From Acetobacterium malicum subsp. dehalogenans DSM 11527 (GTDB lineage Bacteria; Bacillota; Clostridia; Eubacteriales; Eubacteriaceae), in the NCBI RefSeq assembly GCF_000472665.1, contig NZ_AXAC01000003.1, positions 62,001 through 126,000 on the forward strand: a DNA stretch of 64,000 nucleotides, read 5' to 3'. Under the pieces are notes generated by a model. The model was not told where the DNA came from. It did no database searches and saw nothing but the letters and a program-made list of their open reading frames with translations. Positions 38,554-60,185 of this stretch are shown here, piece by piece. Numbering within the stretch: the stretch's first letter is position 1; every line of letters begins with the position of its first letter. The position numbers were made by a program, and so were the translations under genes.

Positions 38554-38800
38554 AAAAAAATCGTCCTTCTGAAAAAGGACGAAATAATTCCGCGGTACCA
38601 CCTTAAATTAATACTGATTGTATTCACTCAAAATTTTAACGCAATTAACGTTAGAGGCTAAAGGCCATCGCAATCGGATGACGTTCACGTCTAAAACTCC
38701 AGAGGGAACTTCAATAAAATTAAACACAAAATCTCTCAGCCTGGGATTTTTTCTCTGTAAAATTTAAAATTTATTTACTCGCTCTATCATTGTTGATAAG
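38554..38800 (-). promoter_or_regulatory. T-box leader, phenylalanine specifier, controlling pheST
   Basis: Minus-strand leader. The T-box core AAGGTGGTACCGCGGAA is at 38588-38604, followed by an intrinsic terminator GTCCTTTTTCAGAAGGAC and a T-run (38554-38580). Stem I contains AG-bulge-type sequence GCTGAGAGA, and GAAGTTCCCTCTGGAG places a TTC (Phe) codon at 38706-38708. The terminator-to-start gap is about 70 bases. Upstream limit approximate. Confidence 0.9.
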
Positions 38801-46102: not shown

Positions 46103-46345
46103 AAAAAAAATTCGTCTCTGAATAACAGGGACGAATACAAATTCGCGGTACCACCTTGCCTTTGATGCTTACACATCACACTCTGCAAGCAACCTTAGTC
46201 ACTTAGCCATGATAACGGTTGGTATCCGGCCCAGCCTACCGGGCAAAGCCTTTCGGTGAGCAGCTCACAGGATGTATTCATAACGGGGTCCTGCTTTCTC
46301 ACACCAACCGAAAGCTCTCTGCAAAGATCATCCAATTATTACTTG
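46103..46345 (-). promoter_or_regulatory. T-box leader with tyrosine specifier upstream of an ABC transporter
   Basis: T-box core AAGGTGGTACCGCG at 46144-46157. The terminator hairpin CGTCCCTG / CAGAGACG with eight Ts is at 46103-46136. Stem I (AGAGAGC, GGTTGGTG and GTGAGCTGC motifs) contains GAATACATCCTG, placing codon TAC (Tyr) followed by A at 46274-46276. The stem III region has GTAGG...GCCGG. The 5' limit is set by the promoter at 46373-46401. Confidence 0.85.
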
Positions 46346-46372
46346 TTCCTGGTCATCACTTTATTGTTTTTT

Positions 46373-48430: not shown

Positions 48431-48715
48431 AAAAACAAAAAAGCCCCTTTGTCAAACAAAGGGACGTATCAACGCGGTTCCACCCAATTTGATTCACTTG
48501 CGTGAATCCACTTAAGTTCTGAATAACGGTCAGCTCCGAAAAACCCTACTATAAAAGAAAGTGCCAGCAGGTGCATAACGCGACTTTCCAATCAATTTCA
48601 GGTTTACGACTCCAAGGTGGTTTTCAATTATCTGCAGTATAGGCAATTACAGCCAGGTTGCCTACTCTCTGAAACGTATGGATAACTTACTCGTCCTTAT
48701 CAGCGTCTTTTTTTA
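48431..48715 (-). promoter_or_regulatory. T-box leader with threonine specifier, controlling thrS
   Basis: T-box core TGGGTGGAACCGCG at 48473-48486. The terminator GTCCCTTTGTTTGACAAAGG with a T-run is at 48431-48464. In stem I, GAAAACCACCTTGGAG places ACC (Thr) followed by A at 48619-48621. AGAGAG starts stem I near 48671. Confidence 0.9.
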
Positions 48716-56251: not shown

Positions 56252-56330
56252 GATTCTACACCTCCTCATACCAGACTCGCCACAAAAGGTGCTCTCGACT
56301 TAAAACCTTGTGTGTGCGGCTACATAACTT
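56252..56330 (-). promoter_or_regulatory. L21-type leader of rplU
   Basis: A GC-rich imperfect hairpin on the minus strand (CCGCACAC/AAGG arm near 56306-56320 against CCTTTTGTGGCG near 56278-56290) lies directly between the promoter and rplU. It fits the L21 leader element known upstream of rplU in Firmicutes. Structure was read by eye only. Confidence 0.6.
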
Positions 56331-56335
56331 TATAA

Positions 56336-59488: not shown

Positions 59489-59522
59489 CGATCAAGAAAT
59501 AAGTACAAACAAATAAAATTAC

Positions 59523-60113
59523 AAAAAACGCTGAAGCCGATTCCACATCACTGTGCAGAACCGGCTTCAGCTTTTAACTTCTGATATCATTCCTTTTGGA
59601 CTCACCCCTTTCAATTAACCAAAAATCTTCTATTCGCTTTTCACAAGTAATAAACACTTAACCTGGGAAACTTTGTATTCAGAAATCTAAATCTGTTTTA
59701 CAACCTGGAATCATATCCATTTTTACGGTTTTTTTCCATTCTATTTCCTATTTATTGTTAATTGAAATCTCCTGTCAGGTGGATTATTATCTTTGATCCA
59801 TTATTCGTATTTATGGCCACATCATTTTGTACTGTTAAATATTTGATGTTCTTTTTCCATAATGTAAATACCGATCTCTAATCAATCACACAATGATTTT
59901 CTACAACCTGACCATTTAGCCAATTAGACTCTGGTCACTGTTGCATCTCAGGAGGTGACAAGTGATAAAACTTAATTAATCATCCGGTTTGGGTTAAATT
60001 TCAGTTCGAACCGATCACCGTCTTCCGTTAATCTTTATCAGCAGTTAAGGTTTATTTACTTTTCAATGACCGTGTCAGTCAATCTGGAAAAGGATTGAGT
60101 TGATCTTTGATTT
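59523..60113 (-). ncRNA. Candidate ~590-nt non-coding RNA unit of unknown family
   Basis: About 590 bases with no significant open frame, yet bounded on the minus strand by a promoter (60120-60147) and a strong terminator (59530-59571). It contains small hairpins such as TGACCA/TGGTCA (59909-59914, 59932-59937) and AATCA/TGATT (59884-59898), and two copies of CCAGGTT. Only mini-frames of about 12-13 codons exist. Signatures of tmRNA, RNase P RNA, SRP RNA or 6S RNA were not seen. The alternative is a long attenuated leader for ndk, but ndk appears to have its own promoter. Confidence 0.5.
59530..59571 (-). terminator. Terminator of the candidate RNA
   Basis: 10-bp perfect stem GCTGAAGCCG / CGGCTTCAGC. 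On the minus strand GTTTTTTGT follows, so it acts against minus-strand transcripts. Confidence 0.88.
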
Positions 60114-60119
60114 AGCTAA

Positions 60120-60147
60120 ATTATAGCACGTTTTTTTTAAAGGTCAA
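60120..60147 (-). promoter_or_regulatory. Promoter of the candidate RNA
   Basis: TTGACC (60142-60147), 16 bases, TATAAT (60120-60125) on the minus strand, 39 bases after the end of the upstream gene. Confidence 0.65.
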
Positions 60148-60185
60148 GTCTTTTTTTGTAAACGTTTTTATGCCTTATGTAAACC

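Follow-up and report, generated by a model that had tools for sequence, protein, structure and literature searches.

What kind of gene occupies the roughly 590 nucleotides that separate a promoter from a terminator upstream of ndk in Acetobacterium malicum subsp. dehalogenans DSM 11527? We approached this question within a window of 64,000 nucleotides (contig NZ_AXAC01000003.1, positions 62,001 to 126,000). A preliminary description had proposed a unit without a coding sequence that would suit a large structured RNA. Judging from sequence comparisons with relatives, the unit appears to be one member of an apparently undescribed multicopy family of large folded RNAs, in which a seven-codon reading frame is fused to the terminator. 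Its features are collected in Table 1.

Table 1. Predicted features of the unit and other RNA elements, in window coordinates.
Feature	Position	Strand	Basis
Conserved upstream box AAACGTTTACA, candidate operator	60157..60167	-	exact in 52/73 copies
Promoter, sigma-70-type, TTGACC-N16-TATAAT, extended -10 (TG before -10)	60120..60147	-	scan and conservation
Transcript, ~590 nt, predicted	59522..60113	-	positioned from promoter and terminator
P1 5' strand AUCAAAGAUC	60102..60111	-	pairs with P1' zone
P2 5' strand CUUUUC	60088..60093	-	own-partner duplex test
P4 5' strand GUAAAUAAACCUUAACUG	60042..60059	-	own-partner test; in MFE fold of window copy
Internal stretch resembling internal stretches at other loci	59767..59898	-	several blastn matches within query 263-394
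P4' strand CAGGUUAAGUGUUUAUUAC	59647..59665	-	window MFE fold and own-partner tests
P2' strand GAAAAG	59637..59642	-	
P1' strand GAUUUUUGGU, immediately 5' of ribosome-binding site	59618..59627	-	
Shine-Dalgarno region GAAAGGGGTGAG	59601..59612	-	anti-SD duplex energy
Micro-ORF ATG ATA TCA GAA GTT AAA AGC TGA (MISEVKS*), 24 nt	59567..59590	-	counterpart in 73/73 copies
Terminator stem-loop followed by U run; stop codon and part of codon 7 in stem foot	59530..59571	-	
Three T-box leaders and one L21 leader	38572-38799, 46124-46365, 48457-48712, 56263-56331	-	Rfam

The promoter matches the consensus at 11 of 12 positions and is the best of seven promoter-like sites in 2.4 kb, a number at chance level (5.7 expected by shuffling), as is that of terminator-like hairpins (two, with 2.6 expected). 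What raises this promoter and this terminator above chance is that both, together with the adjacent sequence, are conserved at many loci in relatives, which bears out the promoter-to-terminator unit first described, here placed on the minus strand. The -35/-10 pair and the T run were likewise recognized correctly, but the terminator is not a 10-bp hairpin: it has 18 pairs (59571-59530), and the T run behind it reaches 59522. The 595-nt stretch between promoter and terminator folds better than its shuffled versions (z -3.68, 0/100). The separate promoter that had been ascribed to ndk is possible but weak (TTGTTT-N17-TAAAAT, 59488-59460, -35 matching at 3/6 positions); it was read by eye and is absent from the list of the promoter scan.

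A blastn search of the unit against 61 genomes (its own and 60 relatives; E ≤0.01, nine candidates scored per genome) gave matches in at least 33, the own genome included, some of the weak ones perhaps by chance. Within the genus the matches are paired, with query positions 1-140 and ~510-640, the two ends of the RNA, recurring at variable distance at several loci. Iterative nhmmer over 60 fetched loci plus the window yielded 73 complete copies, ranging from 339 to 1,130 nt in length, and a single 3' end that lacks a partner. Each of 16 Acetobacterium genomes holds one to seven copies (four or five in 12 of the 16), and three Eubacterium genomes hold two complete copies each. The unit is thus not a lone element; its own genome holds five complete copies (the window, L031, two in L032, and L033). 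The comparison with relatives that had been suggested at the outset thus shows a conserved region present at multiple loci.

To delimit the family we used a covariance model of the 3' module (R1, built from 57 copies), which matches 18/19 genomes of the genus, 28/40 of the family and, outside the family but within the order, one genome (G041, peptide MTSEIKN). Because R1 recognizes the terminator in the reverse orientation as well, its raw counts are too high: the eight matches in the own genome comprise the five copies, the divergent locus L121, one match on the opposite strand, and what is probably the terminator of a gene. Across the class, R1 found at least 6 of 391 genomes, all of this family, a lower bound from a search with eight candidates scored per genome and strict filters that missed G041. 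When a collection covering 84,980 species was searched with a DNA pattern from the 3' end, 17 records matched. Sixteen of these are from Acetobacterium, Eubacterium (callanderi, barkeri, aggregans, and others), one MAG assigned to Eubacteriaceae, and two MAGs with broader taxon names; the 17th (L171) is a chance match inside a gene. No copy was found on plasmids, two patterns had no match among viral contigs, and phage matches amounted to three records sharing one 29-nt piece, which we attribute to chance. None of the titles and abstract openings surveyed in the literature describes this RNA; tables of intergenic transcription starts for E. limosum and A. bakii lay outside that search and may list copies. 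Altogether, the existence and overall build of the RNA family are well supported by these comparisons, and the family is new as far as the searches reach.

We sorted the copies by eye into ortholog groups with conserved neighbors (A, 14 copies; B, 9; C, 11; D, 8; E, 7), leaving 24 unplaced. Group E copies are short, at ~365-412 nt. The own genome has one copy of each group: A, the window copy, follows the DUF2344 gene and precedes ndk; B lies between alpha/beta hydrolase and DUF389 genes; C follows a PHO4 transporter and a DUF47 gene; D follows a universal stress protein gene; and E lies between GGDEF and Crp-type genes. In two Eubacterium genomes (G022 and G029), one copy each lies behind an ORF judged by eye to be similar to the DUF2344 gene. 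Copies of groups C and D stand in tandem at eight loci (L032, L035, L040, L047, L053, L062, L070, L073), their starts ~1.3-2.7 kb apart, and at six of the eight a universal-stress-protein-like ORF directly precedes the D copy.

The window copy could be a long leader or attenuator of ndk, given its position upstream of ndk in the same orientation and the weak -35 of the supposed separate ndk promoter. Yet at L050 and L061 the same locus precedes another, transporter-like ORF (presumably alsT), and across the family the downstream ORF differs, which makes a leader function exceedingly improbable. No constant co-oriented downstream gene, as expected for a cis-acting leader, was found: among the 69 copies with a mechanically called ORF of ≥70 codons downstream in the fetched DNA, the nearest runs in the direction of the copy in 48 and against it in 21. 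As judged from this varying downstream gene, the copies are free-standing RNA genes, not leaders.

The signals in front of the copies are shared as well. With loose patterns, a -10 is present in 71/73 copies (with the TG in 66), a -35 (≥4/6 matches, 16-18 nt spacing) in 68/73, and a T run in 71/73; transcript 5' ends are predicted at the ATCAAAGATC motif. A longer form of the upstream box, TNTACAAACGTTTACA, occurs at zero or one mismatch at four places in the genome, each preceding a copy, and the window copy has two mismatches to it; at up to two mismatches, the genome holds 10 matches vs 18 for a backward control. A second GTTTACA lies ~22 bp further upstream of the AAACGTTTACA box in the window, and by eye GTTTACA-like half-sites recur upstream of copies. 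Operators of CcpA, LytTR, or PhoP type were considered and set aside, and we name no regulator; the pst promoter lacks the AAACGTTTACA box. The region before pstS (L144, ~1375-1400) contains TTAACA repeats 11 bp apart, which we take to resemble a PhoP box.

At its 3' end, the window unit contains a 24-nt ORF with a strong Shine-Dalgarno (SD) sequence and a counterpart in all 73 copies, which refutes the claim that it lacks a coding sequence. The frame has seven codons including the ATG in 72/73 copies and eight in the remaining one (L080, through an in-frame 3-nt insertion), and the anti-SD duplex reaches -6 kcal/mol or better in 73/73 copies vs 31/73 when shuffled. It is the only frame placed alike in ≥80% of copies across all five groups. 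A conserved small frame had been named beforehand as evidence against the original proposal, and it does remove a purely non-coding reading; still, the frame takes up 24 of ~590 nt, and the rest is unexplained by it.

How far the frame is constrained as a coding sequence can be read from its variation. The copies end in TGA (31), TAG (29), or TAA (13), and none of the 46 distinct seven-codon ORFs has TGG in place of the stop, although G is common at both letters (P 3.4e-5, a value that assumes independence and ignores descent). Since the stop lies inside the terminator stem, and codon 7 and the stop are partly stem, the choice of both is limited. The 46 ORFs specify 29 peptides (four different ones among the five copies of the own genome), with Glu at codon 4 in 41/46 and Thr at codon 2 in 35/46, and third positions vary most. 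Codon statistics are mildly coding-like, synonymous single-base neighbors making up 21/65 in frame vs 16/70 and 17/81 in the other frames. The start is perhaps not always the ATG, because group A has an in-frame GTG five codons upstream, within the SD, with the frame open in 14/14, and because in L051 and L071 another ATG lies upstream in the same frame. Further overlapping ATG frames occur in L051, L057, L060, L063, and L071, and other small ORFs are conserved within single groups.

Many divergent copies also keep seven codons while the peptide differs (MKPESER, MVIEQHC, MQTEPKN, MTKESQD, MTEQIWD, MTSEIKN). In 22 covariance-model matches that we inspected, 19 have seven codons, one eight (L134), one nine (L121), and one none (L122); in 16 others, nine have seven codons and seven have none (the first in L175, L177, L178, L180, L181, L182, and the first in L184). 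These matches come from related species and include some ordinary copies, and thus are not independent. By eye, L122, L177, L178, and L182 resemble terminators of protein genes.

It is conceivable that the micro-ORF is untranslated, its ATG, stop, and spacing belonging to a conserved element that only mimics a gene, either an RNA motif or a binding site for a protein. The 73 intact frames with strong SD sequences, the three interchanging stops without TGG, the in-frame insertion in L080, and the retention of seven codons in many diverged copies all argue against this; in its favor are the weak codon statistics and the conservation of the terminator stem and of the SD-to-ATG stretch AGTCCAAA beyond the needs of translation. 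On balance, we consider an untranslated motif improbable.

The much larger remainder of the RNA appears to be organized by pairing between its ends. When the two ends of all 73 copies were folded jointly with alifold, the terminator alone was recovered; aligning each ortholog group separately was more informative. The consensus of groups A, B, C, and E contains P1, which pairs the 5' end AUCAAAGAUC with GAUUUUUGAU just before the ribosome-binding site, and that of groups B, C, D, and E contains P4; P1 is missing from the consensus of group D, and P4 from that of group A. P1 forms 9-10 of 10 pairs in 56/71 scored copies vs 1.4% of shuffled zones, and it ends 26-28 nt before the ATG in 54/71. 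The helix is nearly invariant and its covariation weak, with double changes as frequent as observed reached by 34/1000 shuffles (51 copies).

P2 and P4 were evaluated by exchanging strands between copies, in 60 copies chosen for ≥8 P1 pairs (two of the 73, in which the 5' end was not located, were left out). Mean duplex energies with the own partner vs exchanged partners are -9.23 vs -6.64 kcal/mol for P2 and -14.12 vs -11.20 kcal/mol for P4, with 0/5000 permutations as good in either case. By group there are exceptions: P4 strands of group B pair better with A strands and those of D and E with C, while P2 strands of group A pair better with B and those of C with A or B. An earlier P4 test on 48 copies also gave 0/2000 permutations as good; at that stage eight copies were omitted, their P1' pattern being absent, and the P1/P2 row contained one artificial energy that came from an empty window (L077). 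The P4 windows had been narrowed after a weak result with loose windows, in which the cognate duplex surpassed 95% of other-group partners in only 15/73 copies. Covariation terms of alifold within groups are near zero or unfavorable (-0.68 to +2.98). The terminator does covary, both sides having changed at 9/16 pairs with 97.8% of cells paired (0/500 shuffles, 57 copies).

Taken together, these comparisons support a model in which P1, P2, and P4 close one large domain just upstream of the micro-ORF module. Multi-locus conservation, end pairing, and terminator covariation speak for the large structured RNA of the preliminary description, an interpretation that nevertheless missed both the multicopy family and the seven-codon frame. 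When the P1 5' strand is removed from the group E alignment, alifold instead pairs the P1' strand with the bases that precede the SD, giving a hairpin (covariation term only -0.29), and we leave as an idea that this hairpin and P1 might be mutually exclusive. Masking of the SD by the start of the RNA is unsupported, with 880/5000 shuffles equally good. At the ndk locus of three genomes (L034, L045, L064), the copies are ~500 nt longer (1,123-1,129 nt) and contain no sense ORF of ≥70 codons.

Is this a known RNA? The window copy has no match at gathering score in Rfam 15, which includes OLE, GOLLD, ROOL, HEARO, 6S, and riboswitches; at E up to 10, the hits were to one microRNA, one snoRNA, and, weakly, an alphaproteobacterial leader, none of them plausible. 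Nineteen further loci gave only two L21 leaders, both outside the copies, so the covariance search agrees with the initial failure to assign a family. ARAGORN found no tmRNA or tRNA gene in the window. Elsewhere on the minus strand of the window, four elements reach or exceed their Rfam gathering scores, three of them T-box leaders and the fourth an L21 leader.

OLE, GOLLD, and ROOL presumably have transcription units of their own, as this RNA is predicted to have. They also share with it a size of several hundred nucleotides and long-range structure, according to PMC12286853. Unlike them, the present RNA is multicopy, carries a conserved ORF, varies threefold in length, and has no Rfam match. 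Dual-function RNAs such as RNAIII/hld, SgrS/SgrT, and SR1/SR1P, which we take to be free-standing structured RNAs with a short ORF, offer a second parallel: by sequence, the unit has its own promoter and terminator, a structured body, and a short frame conserved in 73/73 copies. It differs from them in that its ORF has seven codons, is 3'-terminal, and is fused to the terminator, and again in the lack of an Rfam match.

The closest analog is mccA of microcin C, which according to PMC6495379 is a seven-codon ORF conserved in length and not in sequence, with a strong SD and a terminator directly behind. There the message yields an fMet-heptapeptide and keeps the ribosome at the RNA 3' end, ribosome binding is said to induce transcription termination, and the fitted number of rounds in vitro without ribosome dissociation is ~71 for 7 codons, 30 for 11, and 6 for 15 (PMC6495379). 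The family shares the seven codons (72/73), the strong SD (73/73), and the T run (71/73). In contrast to mccA, the ORF here follows a long structured domain, has its stop within the terminator stem, and is repeated several times on the chromosome of a genome.

This likeness to mccA (PMC6495379) raises the question of whether the heptapeptide is made into a peptide-nucleotide antibiotic of the microcin C kind. MccB requires a C-terminal Asn (PMC6495379), but only 9/73 peptides have one. No adjacent ThiF enzyme was found among 10 neighbors at four loci of the own genome (one neighbor has no Pfam family), and the six ThiF matches of that genome all lie elsewhere, the nearest ~16 kb from a copy. 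A microcin C-like precursor is therefore very unlikely. Two ThiF-family genes stand close together at G000:C4:65347-68669, ~16-19 kb from the group E copy.

What, then, would such an RNA do? The reading that we tentatively favor, at somewhat below even confidence, is that the window unit belongs to a multicopy set of free-standing dual-function RNA genes whose micro-ORF is translated repeatedly. We propose repeated translation because a fixed length with a looser sequence fits mccA-like behavior. By analogy with mccA, ribosomes would enter at the accessible 3' module and read its seven codons again and again. The foot of the large domain ends about where the upstream edge of such a ribosome would be. 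It would thus adjoin the ribosome's place, and the domain might set the timing or act itself; its folding could govern ribosome access or RNA lifetime. The most likely output would be regulated formyl-heptapeptide synthesis, with the RNA body as sensor or regulator.

Alternatively, the RNA body itself may be the effector, either an RNA machine of the OLE, GOLLD, or ROOL type or an antisense RNA that acts in trans, in which case the seven codons would only hold a ribosome at the 3' end, stabilizing the RNA or timing its termination, with the peptide as a by-product. Most of the 340-1,130 nt is indeed non-coding, the large domain is closed by end pairing, and length is kept better than peptide (29 peptides in 46 ORFs, with MVIEQHC, MQTEPKN, and MTKESQD among the divergent ones). 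Further, a U/C-rich 5' segment conserved in the Acetobacterium copies could bind the Shine-Dalgarno sites of other mRNAs; this segment, however, is not conserved in the Eubacterium copies. The peptide is also constrained at codons 2 and 4, with third positions differing most, and a threefold variation in RNA length would be unusual for a machine. We regard an RNA effector as possible, though less likely than not.

Repeated translation of the micro-ORF, our preferred reading, bears on a wider point. To our knowledge, conserved seven-codon genes have scarcely been described apart from microcin C, and annotation pipelines pass over frames this short. In the present family, a seven-codon frame is the fixed end of a multicopy large structured RNA in Acetobacterium and Eubacterium, acetogens studied for gas fermentation. 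This makes it testable whether very short ORFs are kept for their peptide or for ribosome holding and recycling, and it offers a new large RNA family to structural work. More speculatively, and with some doubt on our part, a large sensor-like RNA domain closed onto a terminator-fused seven-codon "ribosome parking" gene might represent a new class of RNA device, providing an acetogen lineage with formyl-heptapeptide signals or ribosome-holding RNAs. If so, this lineage would run such signals or RNAs from genes that seem non-coding.

Two kinds of divergent loci stand apart from the complete copies. A sub-family with MTMEKRS-like frames (L121, L123 at G002:C79:74556-74680, L176 at 385-499, L179, L180, L181) has no promoter by pattern within 900 nt; its frame has nine codons in L121 and is lost in L180 and L181. 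At L138 (G013:C22:252986-253111), the upstream box and -35 run straight into an MTSEIES micro-ORF and its terminator, and by eye the RNA body and the -10 look deleted.
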